From positions 1 to 41,916 of the forward strand of contig JAFSDL010000046.1 in the NCBI GenBank assembly GCA_017436285.1: a stretch of DNA of 41,916 nucleotides. The letters are read 5' to 3'. This DNA is from Clostridia bacterium. Its GTDB lineage: Bacteria; Bacillota; Clostridia; Oscillospirales; Acutalibacteraceae. The translations under genes were made by a program, and so were the position numbers. Shown here piece after piece: positions 2,444 through 14,651 of the stretch. The number at the start of each line of letters is the position of its first letter. The stretch's first letter is position 1. The notes under the pieces were generated by a model. The model did not search any database. It was not told where the DNA came from and saw nothing but the letters and a program-made list of their open reading frames with translations.

Positions 2444-3457
2444 ATGAAAAAAATACTTTTAATACTTGTTGGCGGAACAATCTGCACATCACTTAATGAG
2501 CACGGCACCTTGTCAATTTCAAAGGGTGCAGGAATAAGGCTTATTGAGAATTTTAAAAGCTCGCACTCCCCTTTTAAAAATGATATTCAGATAACCCCAA
2601 CCCCAAACCTTTTCATTCTAAGCGAAAATATGTCGATTTCTAATTGGAATCTGATGCTCGACACATACAGAAAATATATCAACACCGATAATTTTGACGG
2701 TGTTATTTTTGCTCACGGAACAGATACCCTCGCCTATTCCACTGCTCTTTTCTCATTAATTCTCGCAAATACAGATATTCCGGTATTTTTCGTTTCAAGC
2801 AATGCCCGTCTTGATTCGGAAAGAGCCAACGGAAATGATAATTTCAGATATGCGGTTGAGCTTATCTGCAAGGGTATTAAGCCAAATGTTTATGCCACAT
2901 ACAAAAACATTTCTGATGGTAGAATGTATCTGCATCTTGGCTCAAGGCTTGAGCAATGCAAAAACTATTCTGAGGACTTTTTCAGTAATGGTGCAATTGA
3001 TATAACAGACGGATTTGACCAAGCATTAAAGCTGAAAAAAGGAAAAACACCACTTATAAATATAAATGGTGACTGGCATCTTGAGAACAAGGTTTTAATG
3101 ATAACTCCTTATGTGGGGCTTGATTATAATTCCTTTAATTACAGTAAATTTTCTGCAATTCTGCACGGAACTTATCATTCAGGAACCGCCTGCACAGAGC
3201 CATACAACGAAAATTCTGTTTTATATTTAATGGAGTTGAGTCCAAAGGAAAATCCTGACATTGATATTTACCTTTCCCCCTCAAAAAATGAGGGCGAGGT
3301 TTATGATACGGTCAGAGTTATCGGAAATCACAAGGCTAATGAGAAAAAAATCAATTTTCTTTATGGCTATACCAATGAATATACTTATGCAAAATTAGTT
3401 TTAGCATATTCTCTTTTCAAGGATAAAAAAGATATTGAAGAATTTATAAATGAATAA
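2444..3457 (+). CDS. L-asparaginase-family amidohydrolase
   Basis: This 337-residue protein is of the asparaginase/glutaminase family. The N-terminal LVGGTI block carries the first catalytic threonine and FAHGTDT near residue 90 carries the second threonine and aspartate. The region that normally holds the catalytic lysine is diverged (around SDGRMYLHLGSR), so I cannot place that lysine with confidence. There is no signal peptide, so it is probably a cytoplasmic type I-like enzyme. It is the last gene of a three-gene operon and ends at a palindrome shared with the convergent gatB. Archaeal GatD, the glutaminase partner of GatE, belongs to the same superfamily, which makes its place beside a gatB with a degenerate GatA curious. 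The convergent orientation argues against simple co-regulation. Confidence 0.75.
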   Translation: MKKILLILVGGTICTSLNEHGTLSISKGAGIRLIENFKSSHSPFKNDIQITPTPNLFILSENMSISNWNLMLDTYRKYINTDNFDGVIFAHGTDTLAYSTALFSLILANTDIPVFFVSSNARLDSERANGNDNFRYAVELICKGIKPNVYATYKNISDGRMYLHLGSRLEQCKNYSEDFFSNGAIDITDGFDQALKLKKGKTPLININGDWHLENKVLMITPYVGLDYNSFNYSKFSAILHGTYHSGTACTEPYNENSVLYLMELSPKENPDIDIYLSPSKNEGEVYDTVRVIGNHKANEKKINFLYGYTNEYTYAKLVLAYSLFKDKKDIEEFINE

Positions 3458-3506: not shown

Positions 3507-4928
3507 TTATTTACTCATTTTCTTTTCTAAAAGCTCCTTGATAACTGCAGGGTCACCTGCGCCACGAAGCTCCTTCATACAAGCACCGAAGAGTGCCTGA
3601 AGAGCCTTAACCTTACCGTTGTTGAAGTCCTCAACAGCCTTGGGGTTTTCGCTGATAACCTTATCAATTACGCTATCAATTGCAGAAGAATCAAATTTCT
3701 TATCAAGACCCTGCTCCTTGCAATATGCAACGGGGTCAACATTGCTTTCAACAACTGCAATAAGAATTTTCTTACCTGCGTTTCTGTTAATATCACCGCT
3801 ATCAACCATTTTGATAATAGTTGAAAGAGTTTGGGCAGTAACCTCGAGCTCATTAAGAGTTTTGCCGTCCTTACGAAGAATACCTGCACAGTCTGTAAGA
3901 ATCCAGCTTGCAGTATCCTTGGGGTTACAGCCGAGAGCAACAGTATCGTCAAGAAGAGCCATAAGCTTGTGATTTGAAAGAAGCATTGCAATTTCCTTAT
4001 CGGAAATGCCGACTGCTGCATATTCCTCTGCCTTTTCATCAACTGCAGCAGGCTTCTTTGCCTTGATTTCTTCAAGCCATTCATCATCAATAACGATGGG
4101 CATAAGGTTTGCATCAGGGAAATAGCGGTAATCCGCTTCAGTTTCCTTGTTACGCATTGCAAAGGTTTTTCCGCTCACATCATCAAAGCGCCTTGTTTCC
4201 TGAACAAGAGATTCTGTTTCGTATTCAAGAGCATCCATATGGCGCTGTGCTTCATATTTAATTGCTCTTTCAATAGCCTCAAAGGAGCTCATATTCTTGA
4301 TTTCGGTACGAACACCGAACTCCTCACTACCCTCGGGACGAACAGAAATGTTAACATCACATCTCATTGCGCCCTCTTCACATTCAGAAATACCGCCTGA
4401 ACGGAACATAGATTTAAGCTTGTTAAGGTAAACAACAACCTCTTCTGCACTGCGAAAATCGGGCTGAGTAACAATTTCAATAAGGGGAACGCTGGTACGG
4501 TTAAAATCAACAAAGGAAGAATTACCACCGTGAACGAGCTTACCTGCATCCTCCTCCATATGAATCTGCTTGATACGGATATCACGGGTGCCTGCACTTG
4601 TTTTAACGGGCACACAACCATTTGTGCAAATGGGGTGATTGAGCTGAGTAATCTGATATGCACAGGGCAAATCAGGATAATAATAGTTTTTCTTATCGAA
4701 GGTTGTGTAGCGACTGATTTCACAGTTAAGCATAAGGCCTGCAGTAACTGCCAATTCAACAACCCTTTTGTTCATTACGGGCAACATACCGGGCATACCG
4801 CTACAAGCGGGACAAACACAGTCGTTAGGTTCATTTGCCGCAGAATGTCCGCCACAGGAACAGAATATTTTTGATTCGGTGCTTAATTCAACGTGAGTTT
4901 CAAGGCCGATGACAATTTCATAATTCAT
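3507..4928 (-). CDS. gatB: Asp-tRNA(Asn)/Glu-tRNA(Gln) amidotransferase subunit B
   Basis: GatB phosphorylates (mis)acylated tRNA and amidates it with ammonia delivered from GatA. This copy looks intact. GLETHVEL carries the metal-binding Glu and His, the Cys pairs FCSC and CVCPAC form the zinc site, and DKKNYYYPDLP, HMEEDAGK, MRCDVN and ADYRYFPD are all present. The C-terminal YqeY-like tail is complete. Length is normal (about 473 residues). I prefer the ATG at 4928 because AAGGG lies 9 bases upstream. An ATG at 4934 would overlap the gatA stop by ATGA. It is the last gene of the aspS-gatA-gatB operon and ends at the palindrome at 3461. With its partner GatA catalytically degenerate, the ammonia source for this GatB is unclear. 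Confidence 0.95.
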   Translation of the reverse strand: MNYEIVIGLETHVELSTESKIFCSCGGHSAANEPNDCVCPACSGMPGMLPVMNKRVVELAVTAGLMLNCEISRYTTFDKKNYYYPDLPCAYQITQLNHPICTNGCVPVKTSAGTRDIRIKQIHMEEDAGKLVHGGNSSFVDFNRTSVPLIEIVTQPDFRSAEEVVVYLNKLKSMFRSGGISECEEGAMRCDVNISVRPEGSEEFGVRTEIKNMSSFEAIERAIKYEAQRHMDALEYETESLVQETRRFDDVSGKTFAMRNKETEADYRYFPDANLMPIVIDDEWLEEIKAKKPAAVDEKAEEYAAVGISDKEIAMLLSNHKLMALLDDTVALGCNPKDTASWILTDCAGILRKDGKTLNELEVTAQTLSTIIKMVDSGDINRNAGKKILIAVVESNVDPVAYCKEQGLDKKFDSSAIDSVIDKVISENPKAVEDFNNGKVKALQALFGACMKELRGAGDPAVIKELLEKKMSK

Positions 4929-4930
4929 AT

Positions 4931-6115
4931 TCATTCACCCTTCCTTTCAACGCTTTTTGCAAGACTGAGAAGCACGCTTTCACTGAAATGCTTACCCATA
5001 AGCTGAACACCGCCACTGACAAGAGCAGGTGTACCGATAAGGTTTGGAAGAGCGGTAAATACGCTTTCCTCAAATACCTTTGTGAAAGCATCCTTAATAT
5101 CATAAGCAGTAAATTCTGTTTTACTGCAAGCGGGAGCAAGAATTGCATCATATTTCTCAAGAAGCTCTTTTGTTGCATCTGCAACAGCTCTGCGAACTCT
5201 TAAGGATTTGTCGTAGCAATCCTTGTATCTGTTTTTTGATAAAGCATCAGAGCCATAGAGAATAACCGCTTTTGTAAGGAAGTTAAAGCCCTCTGTTCTG
5301 GATTTCACATATAATTCGTCAATGTTTCTGTATTGCTCTGCACGGTGACCAAATTTAACACCATCATAACGAGAAACATTATTACAGGTTTCTGCGCACA
5401 TAAGAATCTGCCAGGCGGTATTCGCCAAATCGAAGTAATCCCAGGAGATTTCCTCAACATCTACGCCGTTTGCTTTGAGTGCTTCTGCATATTTTTGAAC
5501 ATTTGCTTTTGTTGCATCGTCTGCTTTTTCAAGGAGCTCCTTAACAACACAAACCTTTTTACCTGCTACATCAACATCAGTCGAATAGTTATATTCCTTT
5601 TCAGGTAAGCTTGTTCCGTCTTTATCATCGTGACCTGCAATAATGCTCATAATCTCCTTAACGCCTTCTGCATTTGGTGCGTAAACACCAACCTGCTCAC
5701 CTGAAGCTGCACAGGAAATAACACCATAACGGGAAACTGTACCATAGGTGGGCTTAAGAAAATCAATTCCTGCAAAAGCTGCAGAGCGTCTTGTTGAGCC
5801 GTTCATATCAACGCCTAAGGCTGCTTTTACATCACCGTTTTTAACTAATGTTGCTGCTGCGCCCTCAAGCTTTTCAGTCTGAGGAGCGTAATATGAAAAT
5901 TCACCAACAAGGTCTAAACCGAATTCGCCTGTGTGAGCCTTACCTGAAACTGCATAGCCCTTTTCCTCAAGGCGTGTAACTGCTTCTGCACTGAAAAGAG
6001 GCTTGAAGCCCTCAAGAATACGGGAACCTGCCGCTGCAAGAGCATCCTTTACAAGAATTGTATCGTCTACTGCAATTGTTCCTACTTCGCAAATTTTAGT
6101 TGCATAATATTTCAC
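4931..6115 (-). CDS. gatA: Degenerate GatA-like amidotransferase subunit A
   Basis: GatA normally hydrolyses glutamine with a Lys-cisSer-Ser triad and passes ammonia to GatB. This homologue is about 394 residues rather than about 485. Family landmarks remain: ILEGFKP, FLKPTYGTVSRYG, NVSRYDGVKFGHR and SRTEGF. The N-terminal helical region is missing. The catalytic lysine of the usual IKDN block is Asp17 (VDDTI), the Gly/Ser-rich loop with the cis-serine is deleted (Leu83 in place), and only the nucleophile Ser107 survives in an NGS context. The arginine and aspartate that bind glutamine in characterised GatA also appear replaced. Glutaminase activity is therefore unlikely. The GTG at 6115 has GAGG 8 bases upstream; an earlier GTG at 6124 is possible. 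It lies between aspS and gatB. The reading frame is continuous and well conserved, so it looks functional rather than decayed. Confidence 0.85.
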   Translation of the reverse strand: MKYYATKICEVGTIAVDDTILVKDALAAAGSRILEGFKPLFSAEAVTRLEEKGYAVSGKAHTGEFGLDLVGEFSYYAPQTEKLEGAAATLVKNGDVKAALGVDMNGSTRRSAAFAGIDFLKPTYGTVSRYGVISCAASGEQVGVYAPNAEGVKEIMSIIAGHDDKDGTSLPEKEYNYSTDVDVAGKKVCVVKELLEKADDATKANVQKYAEALKANGVDVEEISWDYFDLANTAWQILMCAETCNNVSRYDGVKFGHRAEQYRNIDELYVKSRTEGFNFLTKAVILYGSDALSKNRYKDCYDKSLRVRRAVADATKELLEKYDAILAPACSKTEFTAYDIKDAFTKVFEESVFTALPNLIGTPALVSGGVQLMGKHFSESVLLSLAKSVERKGE

Positions 6116-6125
6116 TCTACACACC

Positions 6126-8204
6126 TCACTTTACTAATCTGGGAACCTGCCAGCTATCGTCACTGCGCTCAGGTGCGCCTTCAAGCAGGCTTTCTCTTGA
6201 AAAATTCTGCTTGCGGACATCCTCGCGCAAAACATTTGTCATTGGCATAACGTGTACCATTTCTTCAACATTTTCTGTATCACAGGTACTGAGCTTCTTT
6301 TCGCTTTCGCTCATAGCACTGAAAATACCCTGCATAACTGCTTCTTCCTCTTCTGTAAGAGAAAGCTGATTCAACTGCTGAGCATTTGAGAAGGTTGAGC
6401 GCTTACCCTGTGACTGCTTTCCTGAACCACCAACAGAAGCAGAGCGCTGAGCAAGTGCGCTACCGTTACCAAGAAGGTGAACATCCTCAAGCTGTTGATT
6501 TGTAACATCGCCGGGAGCACCAAGCAACAAGTCCTGAGCGTTACCGTTCAAGGGGAATGCAATAACATCAAGGATTTTTTCTTCATCAGTAAGGAGCATA
6601 ACCATACGGTCAATACCGGGTGCCATACCTGCATGAGGTGGTGCACCATACTGGAATGCAGTATATAAAGCGTTAAAGCGTTTCTTTAATTCTGCCTCAT
6701 CATAGCCTGCAATTTCAAATGCCTTTTTCATAATATCAATATCGTGGTTACGAACTGCACCGGAAGCCAGCTCAATACCGTTACAAACAAGGTCATACTG
6801 ATATGCAAGAACCTCTGTGGGCTCTTTATTGAGAAGAGAATCCATACCACCCTGAGGCATTGAGAAGGGGTTGTGAGTGAAAATCATTTCACCAAGTTCT
6901 TCATCAAACTCATACATAGGGAAGTCAACAACGAAGCAGAATTCGAAAGCATCATCGCGGATTAAATCTAATTGGTCTTTCTTTGCCAACCATTCGCGAA
7001 TCATACCTGCTTTTTTCTCAGTATCGTTTTTCTTATCATCACAGATAAAGAAAAGTGTTTCGCCCTCTTTAACGTTTGTGAGCGCTTTTATTTCCTCTTT
7101 CTGCTCTTCGCTGAGGAATTTAGCAATAGGACCTAAGAAAACATTATCTTTAAGAGTGATATAACCTAAACCGCCTAATCCAACTGCATCAGAAGTTGCA
7201 AACTTAAGAGAGTTTTCAAAGAATTTATTTGATTTACCGCTACAATCAGCAACAATACCGCGAACAGGTCTGCCTCTGAATGCAGGGAAATTAACATTTG
7301 CAAAGAAATCTGTTAAGTCACAGATAATCAAGGGGTTTCTTAAATCAGGTTTATCTGAACCGTAGTACATCATAGCATCTGCATAGGTAATACGACGGAA
7401 GGGCTTGGGAGTTACCTTTTTATCAGAGAAGGTTGTGAAGGTATCGTAAATAACATCCTCACAAACATCGAGAACCTCTTCCTGAGTTGCAAAAGCCATT
7501 TCAAAGTCCAGCTGATAGAATTCACCGGGTGAACGGTCTGCACGGGCATCTTCATCACGGAAGCAGGGTGCAACCTGGAAATATCTGTCAAAGCCTGAAA
7601 CCATAAGAAGCTGTTTAAACTGCTGAGGTGCCTGAGGCAAAGCATAGAATTTACCGGGATGCTTACGGCTGGGAACAAGGAAATCACGGGCACCCTCGGG
7701 TGATGATGCAGTAAGAATAGGTGTCTGCATATCAAGGAAATCCTTTGCCTCCATCTTATTTCTTAAATGACGGATGATTTTTGAACGCATAACAAGATTA
7801 TCGTGATTCTTGGGGTTACGAAGGTCAAGATAACGATATTTAAGGCGCAATTCATCCTTGCTCTTTCTTGATTCTCTAACATCAAAGGGAAGCATATTCT
7901 GGCTTTTACCTAAAACCTGAAGGCTGTCTGCAACTAATTCAACATAGCCTGTATCGATTTTGGTATTTACTGTTTCAGGGTCACGCTTTTCAACAACACC
8001 GCTGACAGAAATAACTGTTTCACGGTTAACGTTTCTGAGAAGCTCCTCATTGTGAACAACAACCTGAGTAACGCCTGTGTAGTCACGAAGGTCAACGAAT
8101 ATAACGCCACCGTGGTCACGTACAACATCAACCCAGCCTGCAAGCTGAACAGTCTGACCTATATGCTTATCACAGATGTCGTTACAAAACAACGTTCTAT
8201 ACAT
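6126..8204 (-). CDS. aspS: Aspartyl-tRNA synthetase fused to a GatC domain
   Basis: Residues 1 to about 580 are a bacterial-type AspRS: OB-fold anticodon domain, motif 2 FRDEDARADR, a GAD insertion (about 280-410) and motif 3 with GIDRM. His31 in VRDHGG matches the position linked in Pseudomonas AspRS to non-discriminating activity that also charges tRNA-Asn. After a polar linker (about 583-612, rich in Ser, Gly and Gln), residues 614-692 read as GatC: LSLTEEEE, CDTENVEEMVHVMPMTNVLRED, and a final PERSDDSWQVPRL. GatC is normally a separate protein of about 95 residues clamped around GatA; no separate gatC is present. The fusion would tether the synthetase that makes Asp-tRNA(Asn) to its amidotransferase. 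The start ATG follows GGAGG. It is the first gene behind a T-box leader. Confidence 0.93.
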   Translation of the reverse strand: MYRTLFCNDICDKHIGQTVQLAGWVDVVRDHGGVIFVDLRDYTGVTQVVVHNEELLRNVNRETVISVSGVVEKRDPETVNTKIDTGYVELVADSLQVLGKSQNMLPFDVRESRKSKDELRLKYRYLDLRNPKNHDNLVMRSKIIRHLRNKMEAKDFLDMQTPILTASSPEGARDFLVPSRKHPGKFYALPQAPQQFKQLLMVSGFDRYFQVAPCFRDEDARADRSPGEFYQLDFEMAFATQEEVLDVCEDVIYDTFTTFSDKKVTPKPFRRITYADAMMYYGSDKPDLRNPLIICDLTDFFANVNFPAFRGRPVRGIVADCSGKSNKFFENSLKFATSDAVGLGGLGYITLKDNVFLGPIAKFLSEEQKEEIKALTNVKEGETLFFICDDKKNDTEKKAGMIREWLAKKDQLDLIRDDAFEFCFVVDFPMYEFDEELGEMIFTHNPFSMPQGGMDSLLNKEPTEVLAYQYDLVCNGIELASGAVRNHDIDIMKKAFEIAGYDEAELKKRFNALYTAFQYGAPPHAGMAPGIDRMVMLLTDEEKILDVIAFPLNGNAQDLLLGAPGDVTNQQLEDVHLLGNGSALAQRSASVGGSGKQSQGKRSTFSNAQQLNQLSLTEEEEAVMQGIFSAMSESEKKLSTCDTENVEEMVHVMPMTNVLREDVRKQNFSRESLLEGAPERSDDSWQVPRLVK

Positions 8205-8255: not shown

Positions 8256-8286
8256 GTCCCGGGGAATATTGAAATATTCCCGGGAC
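8256..8286 (-). terminator. T-box intrinsic terminator
   Basis: On the minus strand a GC-rich palindrome (GTCCCGGGGAATATT and its complement, about 14 bp) is followed by TTTTTTATTT. It lies just downstream of the T-box antiterminator sequence and would stop transcription before aspS when the sensed tRNA is charged. Confidence 0.9.
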
Positions 8287-8500
8287 GAGTAAACAAATAA
8301 TTACCCGCGGTGCCACCCGCATTGACACGCAAAAGCGCATCCTCTTTTAATATTCTGTTTTAATATCAACGAAGTGTTCCCAAGCTTACTACTCATCTCA
8401 AACGCGCTTTCAGTCGGTGACGCATTCTCCCTGACAGACTTTCCAAAAAAGCCGAGTCTTCGCGAAGCAAGAAAAAATATACTTCATATTTCTCCAAACT
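8256..8500 (-). promoter_or_regulatory. T-box leader controlling aspS-gatA-gatB
   Basis: The minus strand carries GGGTGGCACCGCGGGT at 8303-8318, the hallmark T-box/antiterminator bulge that pairs with the uncharged tRNA acceptor end. It is followed by the terminator at 8256-8286. Upstream, about 180 bases contain the expected structured Stem I region, including CAGGGAG and GACTGAAAG elements near 8411-8432. T-boxes respond to uncharged tRNA of one type; tRNA-Asp or tRNA-Asn is expected here. I could not assign the specifier codon by eye. Confidence 0.93.
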
Positions 8501-8506
8501 ACTGCT

Positions 8507-8534
8507 ATTATACCAAAAAATCATTCTTTGTCAA
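8507..8534 (-). promoter_or_regulatory. Sigma-A promoter of the aspS operon
   Basis: The minus strand reads TTGACA (8529-8534), 16 bases, then TATAAT (8507-8512). Both boxes match the consensus. Transcription would begin near 8500, at the start of the T-box leader. Confidence 0.9.
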
Positions 8535-8651: not shown

Positions 8652-11600
8652 TTACGGCAAATATTTTAACAACATATATCCTTTTGTTCCGTCTGCTGTT
8701 TCAACATACGCCCAGCTACCATTATCTGTAAAAAGAATTGTTACTGTATCACCCAATGCAAGCGTGGCAACAACTGTAGAATCTGCAGATTTTTCTGCAT
8801 AAACCTTATAATTCTGATAAGGTCCATCTATTATAGCCTCTTCATTTGCAGGTGTTACATTATCGGGCAAGTAACGAACTGCTCCCACATAGCTTTCAAG
8901 ATAACTGCCTGATAAGGACACTATGCAAACCGAATCAGACCAAAAGCTTGTGCTATGTGCAAACTCATTATTACCAAGATAAATTCCGCAATGACCTATT
9001 TCTGTGGAGGCGCTACCATCCGCAAGACTTTTAAAGAACAAAACATCTCCCGGTTGAAGCTCATCAATATCAACTCTTGTTGCACTGAATTCTCCCGCAT
9101 AGCCTGAATTATATAACCCCTCTGTTGCATAAAGCGTTTCCACATCCGCTGACAGATTATATAACGGAACATATTGATTCATAATTGAAAGAAGGATATA
9201 TTTCACAAGACCTGAACAATCAAAGCCATAAGCACCATTACTATCAGGAATACCATTTGACTGCCCGTGTGCATATACAGTTTCCCAATTTTGTGCTATA
9301 TCAAGTGTAAGGTCAATTACCTGCTGTTGATATTGTGTGTTGCCTTCATAGGTAAAGCTGCTTTTTACCGATGTCAGTTTTTCTTCATCCACCCCTTGCC
9401 ACAAATACATAAGGCTATCATTATAAAACACTCTGTACCAGGAGCCTGCTTCACTGCTTGTAATCTGATCTCCCAACAAAAGTTCTTCCATATATCTTAC
9501 AGATATAATATTAGCTGTTGTTGTGGGCAAATCATAAAGTTTTAATTGAGGAAGCTTAACATAGCGAATCAAAAACTCCTCATCACTCTCCAAGGGTGTT
9601 GTTATCTTCACAGAATCCGATGCATCTATTTCCTCACCAAAAGCATCACACGCCACAACCTTATAATACAAATCCACACCGCTTATAGCACTTAGATTTG
9701 TATAATAGGTTTTATCTGTAGAAGAAATCAGACTATATTCTGAATCAGCCTTCAAAGACCTATAAACATCATATTTTACTGCATTTGCAACTCTGTTCCA
9801 GCTGAGGAACGGCTTATCAACATCATTAAGCTTACCTTCAAGCTCTACATAGTCAAGGTAAACATAGTCACCTAAATATTCCTCAAGAACAAATCCTTTT
9901 GCACCATTTTCTGTTTCTATATATGCCCATTTACCATTGTCAGTATAAAGAACAGTTATCATATCGTACAATGTCAAGGTACCTGTTATTTCCGAAGAAG
10001 ATGAACGCTCACTGTAAACATTATAATTATAATATTTACCTACCATATATTTGGTAGTATTTGCGGGAGTTGCATCTTCGGGCAAATAACGGACTGCCTC
10101 TGCATATCTTTCAAGATAGCTCTCTGATAAAGGAGCGATACAAACCGCATCATCCCACAAGCTTGTGCTGTGCACAAACTCATTATTACCAAGATAAATT
10201 CCACAATGTCCTATTTCTGCAGATGCACTACCATCTTCAAGAGGTTTAAAGAAGAGCACATCGCCCGGCTGAAGCGCATCAATACCAACCCTTATTGCAT
10301 TAAGCTCGCCCGCATAACCTGAATTATACAAGCCCTCTGTTGCATAAAGTGTTATAATATCCCCCGATAATTTATATACAGGAACATATTTTTGCATCAC
10401 TGAATTAAGCACATATTCTACAAAGCCTGAGCAATCAAAGCCATAAGCGCCATTATTGTCGGGAACACCATTCGACTGATTGGGAGCATATATTGTTTCC
10501 CAATTTTGTGCTATATCAACTGCTAAATCAATTACCTGCTGTTGATATATTGTGTTGCCTGTGTAGCTGAAGCTGCTTACGGTATCGGTAAGCGTTTCGT
10601 TAATATCCTTACTGCAAATATAATACAAATTGCCATTTCTGAAGGCTCTGTACCAATCCCCGTCAGCACCACTAAAAACACAACTACCCAACTCCACTTT
10701 TTCCATATACCTTAAGGGTGTGGAAGCTGACGATGTAGTCGGTAAATCATATACATTTAATTGAGGCACTTTTACATAACGTGTAAGAAGTGCCTCGTTA
10801 CCCTCCAAGGGTGTTGTTATTTTCACACAATCCGATGTATCTATTTCTTCACCATAAGCATCAAATGCCACAACCTTATAATATAAATCCACACCGCTTA
10901 TAGCATCAACATCTGTGTAAGAGGTATTCTCTGTGGAGGAAATCAGAGTATAATCTGAATCCTCCTTTAAAGATCTATACACATCATATCTCACAGCATT
11001 TACAACCTTGAACCAATCAAAAGCAGGCTCGTTTGCTTCATTAAGCTCGCCCTTAAGTTCTACATAACCAAGGTAAACCTCTTCTTCTAAATATTCTGTG
11101 AGAACAAAGCCCTTTTCACCTGCCTCGGTCTCAATATAAGCCCAACTGCCACTATCGGTGTAAAGAACTGTTAACTTATCATACAAAGCTATAGTGCCTA
11201 TTATTTCAGAAGAGGCTGAGCGCTCACTGTAAAGCTTATAATTATTATACTGCCCCACCATATATCTTGTGGCATTTGCGGGAGTTATATTTTCAGGTAA
11301 ATAACGGCGGATACTGAGCAAGGTTTCAGAATATTTATCTGAAAGAGGCACAATATCCACACCATTATCGAAACTACTAAGGCAACTGATGAACTCACCA
11401 TTACCAAGATACAAACCACAATAGCTGACTGTTGAGCCTGAGCCGAAGAACAAAACATCACCTGGTTGAATATTTTCTATATCAATATTTTGGGCACAGA
11501 ATTCTCCTTCATAGCCTTTATTATAAATAGAATCTGTTTTATACAAAGCATCTAAAACAACAGAAAGGTTGTATGCGGGAACAGACTCTTGCATAACTGA

Positions 11601-13196
11601 ATTAAGCACAAATTTTACAAGACCGGGAGCATTGAAGCCGTAGGTTCCGTCAGAATTTGCAACGCCGTTGGACTGACCGGTAGCATAAACTGTATCCCAA
11701 TCGTTATAAATCTCAAGTGCAAGGTCAATTACCTGCTGTTGATACTGTGTATCACCCTCATAGGTAAAGGTGCTTTTAACGGATGTAAGCTTTTCTTCTT
11801 CATCTACACCCTGACGCAGATACAAAAGTCTGTCATTATAAAAAGCTCTGTACCATGAGCCTGTTGAGTTGCTTGTGACCATTCCACCCAGCTTGACCTC
11901 TTCCATATACTTCAATGATACAGTATCTGAAGATATTGCGGGTAATTCATAAAGCTTTAATTGGGAAAGCTTAACATAGCGGGTTAAAAGCTCCTCGTTA
12001 TCTGTCCAGGGTGTTGTTATCTTCACATAATCCGAGGTATCTATCTCCACACCATAAGAGTCAAGTGCCACAACCTTATAATACAAATCCACACCGCTTA
12101 TAGCACTTGTGTTTGTGTAATAGGTTTTTTCTGTGGAAGAAATAAGGCTATATTCCGAATCCGCCTTTAATGACCTGTAAATATCATATTTTACCGCATT
12201 TTTCACTTTATTCCATACAAGGTATGGCTTGTTATCCTCGTTAAGTGTACCTTCAAGCTCTACATAATCAAGGTAAACATAATCGCCTAAATACTCCTCG
12301 AGAACATATCCCTTTTTGCCATTTTCAGTTTCAATATAAGCCCAATTACCACTATCAGTATAAAGAACTGTTACCATATCATACAGAGTCAGAGTGTCAA
12401 TCACCGCTGAATCGGGAGAATGGTCGCTGTAAAGATTGTAATTATAATAATCTCCCACCATATATTTTGTAGTATTTGCAGGAGTTATTTCTTCAGGCAA
12501 ATAACGGCGTGCACCTGCATAATTTTCAAGGTAACTACCCGATAAAGGAACAATACAAACAGCATCACTCCATGAGCTTGTGCTGTGCACAAATTCGTTA
12601 TTACCAAGATAAATTCCGCAATGACCAATTTCTGTTGATGCACTACCGTCTGCAAGGCTTGTAAAGAATATCACATCGCCCGGCTGAAGCTCATCTATAT
12701 CAACCTTTATTGCATTAAATTCACCGGCATAGCCCGAATTATATACATCCGTTGTGGCATAAAGCGTTTCAACATCTGCGGATATATCATACACAGGTAT
12801 ATATTTCTGCATAACCGAAACAATAACATATTTTGCAAAGCCTGAGCAATCAAATCCGCAAACACCGTTACTGTCAGGAATACCGTTGGATTGCTCGTGT
12901 GCATAGGTGGTTTTCCAATTCTGTGCTATATCAACAGCAAAATCAATTACCTGCTGTTGATATGTTGTGCCACCTGTATAGCTGAAGCTACTTCTGGTAG
13001 CAGTAAGTGTTTCATTAATATCTGCGCTACGAAGATAATACAAATCACCGTTTCTGAAAACTCTGTACCAATCCCCGTCAGAACGACTTAACACACAGCT
13101 ACCCAATTCCAATTTTGCCATATACCTTAAAGGCAAAACCTGTGAATTTATATCAGGCATAGTGTATAAATTCACCATAAGCTCATTAACATAACG
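8652..13196 (-). repeat. Four tandem ~400-codon SH3-P60-SH3-Fn3 modules
   Basis: Module boundaries, taken at the RYV..L..LY.LP segment, are about 11985-13196, 10785-11984, 9570-10784 and 8652-9569. The last copy ends after its second SH3-like domain. Catalytic-site positions recur at residues 602, 1008, 1407 and 1812. Long stretches are near-identical between copies (for example GHCGIYLGNNEF), which points to recent tandem duplication or gene conversion. Confidence 0.88.
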
Positions 13197-14651
13197 CTCC
13201 TTGCGCACCTCACCACTCAATTTTGCAGTAAAGCTGACTACCTTTGAGGTTGCCAACTCAACACCCTTGGCGTTTGTTGCTACAATTTTATAATAGAAGG
13301 TAAGTCCTTGAGGAACACTTGAATTTTTATAATTACAAGCAGTTCTTGTAGAAAGCAAGCTGAATGCTTTATCCTCATACAAGGAACGATACACCTTATA
13401 TGCGGAAGCACCCTTAACAGAGCTCCATATAAATTGTGGTATATTTGCATCATCTGTTGATAATGAAACCGCCATTGTCTGAGAAACTGAAACATTCATA
13501 TTCACAACATCCGAATATACAGAAATTGCGGCAGAATCTGAATGGACTGCACGAATTTTATAATAGTATGTTTTGCCTTCTGCTACAGTTGTATCTGTGA
13601 AACTTCTTTCGGTTACTGATGCCAATCTTGTGTATCCGCTTGTTTTTCTCTCAGAGCGATAAACACGATAATTTTTTGCACCTCTCACTAATTTCCAGGA
13701 CAATATTATATCGCCCTCTGCATTAACCTTAGACATCATAAATTGCGGTTGCGATAAAGCGCAGGTTTTGCTTTTACCTGCGGAATATGCAGAATTTGCC
13801 GATGTATTACTTGCTACCGCCTTCACACGATAATAATATTTTGTACCTGCCTGAGCCTCTTCATCCGTATATTCACTGGTAGTGCTTTTACCGATATATG
13901 ACCATGTGCTTTTATCCTCAGAGCGATATACATAATAGGATACTGCACCCTCGATTTTATTCCACTCGATGTGAATTTTGCCTGTTTCAGATACATTGGA
14001 AAGTGTGATTTCAGGTTGAGCAAGCTTGCACACTCTTGAGCAAGCCCCGGAAAAAGCAGAGCTTGCAGAGGTACTGCTTGCGACTGCACGAACCTTATAA
14101 TAATATCGTCTGCCTGCCTCGGTAGATGTATTTTTCATTGAGGTGGCAGTTGTGGTTTTAATAAGGCGGTATTCACCTGTTTTGCTTGTTGCACGATAGA
14201 CCTCGTATTTCTGAGCGCCTTCTACCGCGGTCCATTTTACAGATATTTTCCCGCTTTCCTTAACATTGGAAAGTGTCACCACAGGACGAGGAAGCTTACA
14301 GGTAAGCTTCACCTTGTTGCTTGTATCAGAGGTGGTTTTATCAGAGCTTACGGATTTCACACAGTAATAATATGTTTCGCCAACATCTGCGTCATTATCT
14401 GTATAGCTTAAGGAGCTTGTGGATTTTACTTTTATATATCCGCCACTTCTGGTTTCGGAGCGATAAACATAATAATATGAAGCACCCCAGGCTTTTTCCC
14501 AGGTTATTCTGTTTTTACCTGAAGAAAGAATGTTTGAAGCGGTTATTACAGGTGCATCCGGCTTTATGGCAGCAGAGGTAAAAACCGTTGCCACAATTGT
14601 TATAGTAAACAGAGCAATAACCAATGTAAGCAATACTCTTTTCAGCTTCAT
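8652..14651 (-). CDS. Giant secreted multidomain NlpC/P60 wall hydrolase
   Basis: This 1999-residue protein begins with a signal peptide (MKLKRVLLTLVIALF, cleavage near residue 27). Five Fn3-like domains follow (about 30-485), each with W..V.GA..Y.VYRS. Then come four modules of about 400 residues: SH3-like, NlpC/P60, SH3-like and, except in the last, an Fn3-like domain. P60 domains cleave peptidoglycan stem peptides with a Cys-His pair. The Cys and His are at 602/677, 1407/1482 and 1812/1887 (FDCSG and GHCGIYLG). The second module has Ala1008 in FNAPG and Tyr1077 in SYCGLYLG, so it should be inactive. There is no LPXTG or C-terminal anchor; the SH3-like parts may bind the wall. It starts 31 bases after the amidohydrolase gene and may be read through from that operon. 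The product at 31266-33374 is a one-module paralogue. Confidence 0.92.
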   Translation of the reverse strand: MKLKRVLLTLVIALFTITIVATVFTSAAIKPDAPVITASNILSSGKNRITWEKAWGASYYYVYRSETRSGGYIKVKSTSSLSYTDNDADVGETYYYCVKSVSSDKTTSDTSNKVKLTCKLPRPVVTLSNVKESGKISVKWTAVEGAQKYEVYRATSKTGEYRLIKTTTATSMKNTSTEAGRRYYYKVRAVASSTSASSAFSGACSRVCKLAQPEITLSNVSETGKIHIEWNKIEGAVSYYVYRSEDKSTWSYIGKSTTSEYTDEEAQAGTKYYYRVKAVASNTSANSAYSAGKSKTCALSQPQFMMSKVNAEGDIILSWKLVRGAKNYRVYRSERKTSGYTRLASVTERSFTDTTVAEGKTYYYKIRAVHSDSAAISVYSDVVNMNVSVSQTMAVSLSTDDANIPQFIWSSVKGASAYKVYRSLYEDKAFSLLSTRTACNYKNSSVPQGLTFYYKIVATNAKGVELATSKVVSFTAKLSGEVRKERYVNELMVNLYTMPDINSQVLPLRYMAKLELGSCVLSRSDGDWYRVFRNGDLYYLRSADINETLTATRSSFSYTGGTTYQQQVIDFAVDIAQNWKTTYAHEQSNGIPDSNGVCGFDCSGFAKYVIVSVMQKYIPVYDISADVETLYATTDVYNSGYAGEFNAIKVDIDELQPGDVIFFTSLADGSASTEIGHCGIYLGNNEFVHSTSSWSDAVCIVPLSGSYLENYAGARRYLPEEITPANTTKYMVGDYYNYNLYSDHSPDSAVIDTLTLYDMVTVLYTDSGNWAYIETENGKKGYVLEEYLGDYVYLDYVELEGTLNEDNKPYLVWNKVKNAVKYDIYRSLKADSEYSLISSTEKTYYTNTSAISGVDLYYKVVALDSYGVEIDTSDYVKITTPWTDNEELLTRYVKLSQLKLYELPAISSDTVSLKYMEEVKLGGMVTSNSTGSWYRAFYNDRLLYLRQGVDEEEKLTSVKSTFTYEGDTQYQQQVIDLALEIYNDWDTVYATGQSNGVANSDGTYGFNAPGLVKFVLNSVMQESVPAYNLSVVLDALYKTDSIYNKGYEGEFCAQNIDIENIQPGDVLFFGSGSTVSYCGLYLGNGEFISCLSSFDNGVDIVPLSDKYSETLLSIRRYLPENITPANATRYMVGQYNNYKLYSERSASSEIIGTIALYDKLTVLYTDSGSWAYIETEAGEKGFVLTEYLEEEVYLGYVELKGELNEANEPAFDWFKVVNAVRYDVYRSLKEDSDYTLISSTENTSYTDVDAISGVDLYYKVVAFDAYGEEIDTSDCVKITTPLEGNEALLTRYVKVPQLNVYDLPTTSSASTPLRYMEKVELGSCVFSGADGDWYRAFRNGNLYYICSKDINETLTDTVSSFSYTGNTIYQQQVIDLAVDIAQNWETIYAPNQSNGVPDNNGAYGFDCSGFVEYVLNSVMQKYVPVYKLSGDIITLYATEGLYNSGYAGELNAIRVGIDALQPGDVLFFKPLEDGSASAEIGHCGIYLGNNEFVHSTSLWDDAVCIAPLSESYLERYAEAVRYLPEDATPANTTKYMVGKYYNYNVYSERSSSSEITGTLTLYDMITVLYTDNGKWAYIETENGAKGFVLEEYLGDYVYLDYVELEGKLNDVDKPFLSWNRVANAVKYDVYRSLKADSEYSLISSTDKTYYTNLSAISGVDLYYKVVACDAFGEEIDASDSVKITTPLESDEEFLIRYVKLPQLKLYDLPTTTANIISVRYMEELLLGDQITSSEAGSWYRVFYNDSLMYLWQGVDEEKLTSVKSSFTYEGNTQYQQQVIDLTLDIAQNWETVYAHGQSNGIPDSNGAYGFDCSGLVKYILLSIMNQYVPLYNLSADVETLYATEGLYNSGYAGEFSATRVDIDELQPGDVLFFKSLADGSASTEIGHCGIYLGNNEFAHSTSFWSDSVCIVSLSGSYLESYVGAVRYLPDNVTPANEEAIIDGPYQNYKVYAEKSADSTVVATLALGDTVTILFTDNGSWAYVETADGTKGYMLLKYLP

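Follow-up and report, generated by a model that had tools for sequence, protein, structure and literature searches.

A tethered AspRS-GatC operon with a short GatA that has apparently lost its glutaminase activity

The window analyzed here is the whole 41,916-nucleotide stretch of contig JAFSDL010000046.1 from a Clostridia bacterium of the order Oscillospirales (assembly GCA_017436285.1), one of the contigs of a metagenome-assembled genome (MAG) of 2.05 Mb that is 84% complete. It contains an operon in which a gene encoding aspartyl-tRNA synthetase (AspRS) fused to GatC is followed by a gene for a short form of GatA (GatA-S) and by gatB, with a leader upstream and an asparaginase-like gene beyond gatB (Table 1). 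A preliminary description had recognized the fusion and proposed a covalently tethered transamidosome, taking GatA as the normal subunit. The sequence data fit the tethered assembly, but the assumption regarding GatA was incorrect; the alignment columns revealed loss of the glutaminase site, the more surprising part of the locus. Overall, the results indicate that the operon probably encodes a dedicated, covalently tethered route to asparaginyl-tRNA (Asn-tRNA(Asn)) that proceeds without glutamine hydrolysis by GatA.

Table 1. Features of the AspRS-GatC operon and its surroundings in the window.
Feature	Position	Strand	Basis
Asparaginase-like gene, convergent with gatB	2444..3457	+	PF00710, 76.8 bits
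gatB, 475 aa, start overlapping the gatA stop	3507..4934	-	TIGR00133, 495.4 bits (cut-off 314.8)
Short gatA (GatA-S, 391-397 aa), putative pseudo-amidase	4931..6124	-	TIGR00132 below cut-off; alignment columns
Codon of the Asp that replaces the catalytic Lys	6065..6067	-	Alignment IAV[D]DTI / VAV[K]DNI
GatC domain, residues 604-692, with stop codon	6126..6395	-	PF02686, TIGR00135, 2df4_C, 3h0l_C
Linker, residues about 578-603	6396..6473	-	Gap between AspRS and GatC matches
AspRS part, AspRS2 type, residues 1-577, His31	6474..8204	-	PRK00476, TIGR00459 above cut-off
T-box-like leader, UGGC and conserved AAC-purine	8278..8511	-	Rfam RF00230, 41.3 bits

The fusion is encoded by an open reading frame (ORF) of 692 residues (minus strand, 6126-8204) without internal stop. 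The AspRS part scored 732.9 bits with PRK00476 and 606.2 bits with TIGR00459 (cut-off 373.85), exceeding both cut-offs. The C-terminal part matched PF02686 (residues 616-687, 48.4 bits, cut-off 23) and TIGR00135 (residues 604-691, 53.3 bits, cut-off 47.1) and aligned with GatC chains of known structure, 2df4_C (E 4.4e-8) and 3h0l_C (E 2.3e-7), results confirming the GatC-like domain proposed earlier. The ratio of nonsynonymous to synonymous substitution rates (dN/dS) of the GatC part was 0.076 for the one pair compared, indicating purifying selection. Identity to a related locus, L097 (G and L numbers denote genomes and loci of our sets), was 73% in the linker, 92% in the AspRS part and 87% in the GatC part. 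The fusion as such has a database precedent in the bifunctional AspRS/GatC family NF009460/PRK12820, which has the same order of AspRS then GatC and aligned over 5-679; however, the window protein scored 453.7 bits, did not reach the cut-off of 1379 and is not that equivalog. The preliminary description was not aware of a described AspRS-GatC fusion, and no description was found in a literature search with most subscription journals outside its coverage.

Relatives were obtained by scanning an alignment of short GatAs against the genomes of 84,980 species, and the best 80 of 593 loci were taken; 70 of these plus the window constitute the 71 short-GatA loci referred to below. AspRS2 is fused to GatC in 41 loci, gatC is separate in 28, and two are cut at contig ends. 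Its recurrence in these 41 related loci shows that the fusion is no artefact of assembly. The titles of the relatives name Clostridia, Oscillospiraceae, Lachnospiraceae, Ruminococcus and similar taxa, nearly all MAG or uncultured, and 53 of the 70 name a herbivore by an eye count (goat, sheep, roe deer, cattle, buffalo, yak, reindeer, water deer, horse).

GatA-S is clearly a homologue of GatA (its family profile matched 3h0l_A at E 1e-91); against TIGR00132 it scored 261.2 bits and did not reach the cut-off of 481.1. The available text of PMC4027206 gives the catalytic triad of yeast GatA as S154, cis-S130 and K52 and names an Asp and an Arg as the residues that bind glutamine. These positions were compared between 92 distinct short and 24 full GatAs (125 pieces were aligned; four, contig-cut or 442 aa long, were left out of the classes, and the 97 short rows included five genes entered twice, that of the window among them). 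The catalytic Lys, present in 24 of 24 full GatAs, is replaced by Asp in 84 and by Glu in six short GatAs, the remaining two being fragments gapped at that column. The GGSxGG loop that holds the cis-Ser is found in none of the 92 versus 24 of 24, and the Asp taken from its conserved place to be that binding the glutamine amide is kept in one short GatA (L073) versus all 24 full ones. The nucleophile is Ser in 24, Ala in 48 and another residue or a gap in 20 of the short GatAs, compared with Ser in 23 and Gly in one of the full. In the window GatA the Lys is Asp, the cis-Ser loop and the glutamine-amide Asp are absent, and the nucleophile Ser is kept. In addition, approximately 60 N-terminal residues are gone, the family profile beginning at residues 63-78 of six solved bacterial GatAs. 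Bacterial GatCAB (2df4, 3h0l) likewise has homologues of GatC, GatA and GatB encoded in one operon but differs from the window in that its GatA has the N-terminal region, cis-Ser loop, Lys and glutamine-amide Asp. These results indicate that the glutaminase activity of GatA-S has apparently been lost. That GatA-S has retained glutamine hydrolysis through an unusual active site, for which the Ser of the window and 23 other short GatAs and the good alignment of the remaining sequence with solved GatAs may be cited, is very improbable considering that Lys, cis-Ser loop and glutamine-amide Asp are lost together and that Ala has taken the place of the Ser in 48 of 92. No description of an inactive or glutaminase-free GatA was found in the literature searched, within the same coverage as above.

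The dN/dS of GatA-S was 0.10-0.13 (six pairs), compared with 0.03-0.09 for GatB (five pairs) and 0.29 for a single pair of very short GatAs. Judged by these rates and the alignment columns, GatA-S is a pseudo-amidase kept by selection despite its lost active-site residues. A pseudogene or frameshift was rejected based on stop-free ORFs in most loci and a dN/dS near 0.1. A wrong start as the cause of the missing N-terminus was also rejected, since gatA directly follows the aspS stop and the relatives are about equally long.

In order to evaluate other routes to Asn-tRNA, the genomes were searched for asparaginyl-tRNA synthetase (AsnRS), amidases and glutaminyl-tRNA synthetase (GlnRS). The fusion is the one GatC match in the window's own genome, with no other at E≤10 in a MAG that is 84% complete, which agrees with the earlier statement that the operon has no separate gatC. 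The window gatA is likewise the one amidase-signature match, with no second GatA. Two PF00152 proteins were found, both of them AspRS, namely the fusion and a 593-aa enzyme of the ordinary type with Leu31, and the search for asnS called for earlier returned no AsnRS among the PF00152 matches of this incomplete genome; GlnRS is present (761 bits). Among 21 genomes with a GatA-S of at least 380 aa, AsnRS was above cut-off in two (G307 and G311). In 18 of the other 19 no amidase-signature protein besides the GatA-S type was detected, whereas a full-length one was found in five of five controls. In the remaining genome, G010, a second, full GatA is divided between two contigs, and GlnRS does not exceed the cut-off; G011 has a second fragment resembling GatA-S, with 47% identity to that of the window. 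GlnRS was above cut-off in 19 of the 21, the others being G010 and G186 (88% complete). Nine of the 19 genomes lacking a detected AsnRS are at least 90% complete, the window's genome not among them. Since neither AsnRS nor another amidase was detected, these genomes have no detected route to Asn-tRNA other than the GatA-S complex, itself without a detected glutaminase; this complex should therefore form Asn-tRNA without hydrolysing glutamine. It is highly unlikely that the operon is decaying or marginal and that Asn-tRNA comes from an AsnRS that escaped detection in incomplete genomes: the incompleteness of the MAGs, the AsnRS of G307 and G311 and a few broken copies are in its favor, but the low dN/dS and the 19 of 21 GatA-S genomes with no AsnRS above cut-off, nine of them at least 90% complete, argue against it.

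His31 was found in all 69 AspRS2-type proteins compared, including that of the window, and is presumably a signature of non-discriminating AspRS. The preliminary description had read the enzyme as non-discriminating on this residue; His31 is indeed present, but the second AspRS with Leu31 and the G1-C72 pair of tRNA-Asn described below make an AspRS dedicated to tRNA-Asn a serious alternative. That an ordinary non-discriminating AspRS and an ordinary GatCAB were joined by chance, only the fusion being unusual, is improbable; His31 and similar fusions with full-length GatA in at least nine loci of the order sample are consistent with it, but the GatA is not ordinary and the Leu31 AspRS is present beside it.

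According to the available text of PMC9976931 and PMC4206432, GatCAB requires U1-A72 in tRNA-Asn, a pair that confers amidation, and G1-C72 of tRNA-Asp is an antideterminant that prevents it. ARAGORN was run on 20 of 27 tRNA loci of the window's genome, some of which overlap others. The tRNA-Asn of this genome has G1-C72 and so lacks the U1-A72 pair of a GatCAB substrate. Among 21 genomes with the fusion, tRNA-Asn was recovered in nine (G000, G301, G302, G305, G318, G320, G321, G322 and G328), with G1-C72 in all nine. Six GatA-S genomes with separate gatC yielded tRNA-Asn, with U1-A72 in G090, G144, G153, G335 and G336 and, by eye reading of an odd tRNA, G1-C72 in G332 (a 4.7-Mb assembly). The genomes G079 and G105 with very short GatA have U1-A72; that of G029 was not safely readable. 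The fused complex must still handle a tRNA-Asn with G1-C72. Since genomes of the same genus in which no GatA was found also have this pair, it may reflect lineage history; common descent would be sufficient to explain it, and adaptation to the fusion was not supported over common descent.

The leader upstream of the operon aligned with the full model of Rfam RF00230 (E 7.9e-8). Helices covarying through compensatory changes were found in 39 aligned leaders, UGGC in 42 of 59 and AAC[A/G]CU in 45 of 59. In the available text of PMC2494555, the T-box UGGN pairs with the NCCA end of tRNA, and the specifier lies 1-5 nt before GAG. The C of the leader UGGC fits G73 of tRNA-Asn. The AAC is located immediately ahead of the basal helix's 3' strand, the expected site of the specifier, and is a possible Asn specifier; it was preferred since the triplet indicated by the published rule is not conserved. 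T-box control of tRNA-dependent amidation is the subject of a title in the reference list of PMC4206432, as far as available, and would be the same type of control, although the window leader is short and atypical.

The following working is consistent with these results. AspRS2 would charge tRNA-Asn with Asp, and the C-terminal GatC domain would anchor GatA and GatB such that GatB receives the mischarged Asp-tRNA(Asn) directly and would then activate and amidate it. GatA-S would make no ammonia and may be kept as a scaffold, probably providing the ammonia entry and half of the tunnel. An AspRS2 dedicated to tRNA-Asn and joined to the amidase could dispense with the U1-A72 mark that lets GatCAB refuse Asp-tRNA(Asp), and the leader would turn on the operon when Asn-tRNA is short. 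The source of the ammonia is probably external, either free ammonium of the cell or another enzyme. Free ammonium is plentiful in the herbivore gut. Yeast GatFAB variants with weakened glutaminase were more active with NH4Cl, according to the available text of PMC4027206; thus, amidation by free ammonium has precedent. More tentatively, GatA could be an ammonium gate in which the acidic residue at the place of the Lys (90 of 92) binds NH4+ at the tunnel mouth, the AspRS tether replacing the U1-A72 rule so that the proteins and not the tRNA choose the substrate. Other Asn transamidosomes are not known to be covalent. The assembly of synthetase and amidotransferase in the available text of PMC9976931 combines formation of Asp-tRNA(Asn) with its amidation, as proposed here; the proposed system differs by a covalent link via GatC, a GatA without glutaminase site and a tRNA-Asn with G1-C72. 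The system is apparently a variant of tRNA-dependent amidotransferase that is tethered to the synthetase and has a dead glutaminase half. Glutamine hydrolysis coupled to amidation is regarded as the core of GatCAB; a lineage with an apparently dead but conserved and apparently needed hydrolase half would, if real, show that the halves are separable in evolution and offer a natural ammonia-driven enzyme for study of the tunnel. The fusion together with G1-C72 tRNA-Asn would serve to test whether a tRNA identity element can give way to channelling, and an annotated gatCAB need not mean a glutamine-dependent pathway.

Several observations weigh against the proposal of a dedicated route independent of glutamine hydrolysis. 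The nucleophile Ser is still there in the window GatA, and the genes are broken in a few loci (L106, L159, L165 and L089). Both the operon and AsnRS are kept in G307 and G311, and since MAGs are incomplete (84% complete for the window's), absence of AsnRS or amidases is no proof. The pair G1-C72 also occurs in G295, G303 and G314, of the same genus, where the search for GatA found none, while G294, which has an AspRS1-type fusion, keeps U1-A72. Finally, the leader (41.3 bits) does not reach the Rfam gathering score of 93, the published specifier rule does not fit it, and 12 of 59 leaders, all ahead of unfused genes, have neither motif.

The asparaginase-like gene was evaluated as a candidate source of ammonia. 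It is the commonest non-core neighbour, found in 22 of 71 short-GatA loci versus none of 10 full-length outgroup loci from the same scan, and no such gene was seen in the other 49 within the stretch examined. In unbiased clustering of neighbours it formed the largest recurring non-core cluster (21 loci), followed by a 384-aa family (12 loci). The gene is at most 500 bp from a core gene in 20 of the 22 loci; L085 and L086 show a 4-nt overlap between it and the end of gatB. Relatives at E≤2e-20 occur in 12 of 15 GatA-S genomes versus 6 of 280 others, those with very short GatA counted among the others (Fisher 1e-14, uncorrected for kinship). The protein resembles GatD (2d6f_A, E 1.7e-23). The active site of type I asparaginase and GatD, which we take to be two Thr, an Asp and a Lys, was placed by alignment. 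The asparaginase-like protein of the window has T12, T93 and D94, with Gln171 at the position of the Lys; all 27 distinct sequences (29 rows) share both Thr and the Asp and have Gln instead of the Lys. Lys was found in five of 15 further relatives, with Gln and Glu in three each and Leu, Ala, Asn and Pro in one each (L283 was left out as a wrong ORF). Since five of the ten relatives without Lys are from genomes without GatA-S, the change is not tied to GatA-S. A plain amidase function is weakened by the replacement of Lys by Gln. In archaeal GatDE the asparaginase homologue GatD is the ammonia donor of the GatB homologue GatE. The window resembles this arrangement in having an asparaginase homologue beside a GatB homologue without an active GatA, but here the gene is optional and the catalytic Lys is Gln. 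That the protein is a GatD-like donor, handing ammonia to GatB or raising local ammonium and aspartate, agrees with the linkage, the genome-wide association, the likeness to GatD and the invariant Thr, Thr and Asp. It is nonetheless rather unlikely in view of the Gln in all 27, the lack of a tie between this change and GatA-S and the many loci where the gene was not seen; moreover, the relative in G090, G120 and G177 is from another branch and unlinked to the operon, and G010, G186 and G261 have no relative at E≤1e-8.

The origin of the fusion was examined with a GatB tree (FastTree, midpoint root, 125 rows, 122 distinct) and a sample of the order comprising 295 genomes, of which 146 had GatC matches at E≤0.001; fusion counts from this sample are lower bounds among the GatC matches listed. 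In this list, 14 matches lie in open frames of at least 635 aa and at least 11 are AspRS-GatC, namely those of the window and G024 and nine whose synthetase is AspRS1-like (Met31). The AspRS1-type fusions (L034-L040, L042 and L046) resemble the window in having AspRS-GatC ahead of gatA and gatB but differ by Met31, a GatA not of the short type and a GatB clade of their own (support 0.998); thus, the AspRS-GatC fusion arose at least twice in the order. All GatBs partnering short GatAs (91 rows, 88 distinct) group in a single clade (support 1.0). Those from fused loci fall in two subclades, of which one has 19 rows (0.998) and the other 25 rows together with L106, which is cut at a contig end (1.0); unfused ones are placed between the two at weak support. 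Within this clade the tree appears to fit both two fusions and one fusion with later splits, which cannot be told apart. Two frames suggested by length as AspRS fusions were rejected: L041:7796-9697 (G006) is a natural fusion of GatC and GatA in one ORF, and in L043:5787-8069 (G258) GatC ends a 760-aa ORF that resembles, by eye, NAD-dependent DNA ligase and is directly ahead of gatA. An open frame of similar length in G273 was set aside, by that length, as ligase-like with GatC.

Other forms of GatA were also observed. Very short GatAs of 291-374 aa occur in L070, L071, L072, L073, L077, L091 and L092, and their GatBs form a sister clade (0.997). The loci L071, L072, L073 and L077 have a gatA of 291-323 aa, a separate gatC and AspRS2, with no asparaginase-like gene seen in the stretch examined; in L073 the nucleophile region is deleted as well. 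The 442-aa GatA of G058 (L093:6429-7757) has Glu for Lys and Ala for the nucleophile Ser, its GatB is in the full-length clade, and AsnRS is present in the genome; perhaps it represents a separate loss of the active site. The full-length GatA of G296 (L069:4529-5998), of the same genus, has Gly for the nucleophile Ser, a short AspRS-like gene adjoins gatB, and the genome has AsnRS; this could perhaps be a first step of decay. In L127, L129 and L132 a second gatC-gatA-gatB, its gatA of full length, comes after the short-GatA operon, and an asparaginase-like gene is also present.

Among the remaining neighbours, a protein labeled by eye as alanyl-tRNA editing-like recurs beside the operon in 12 of 71 loci (for example L098:9144-10298). 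Upstream of the operon in the window, a 1999-aa ORF (8652-14651, minus strand) contains repeats that resemble, by eye, fibronectin-type and NlpC/P60-type domains.

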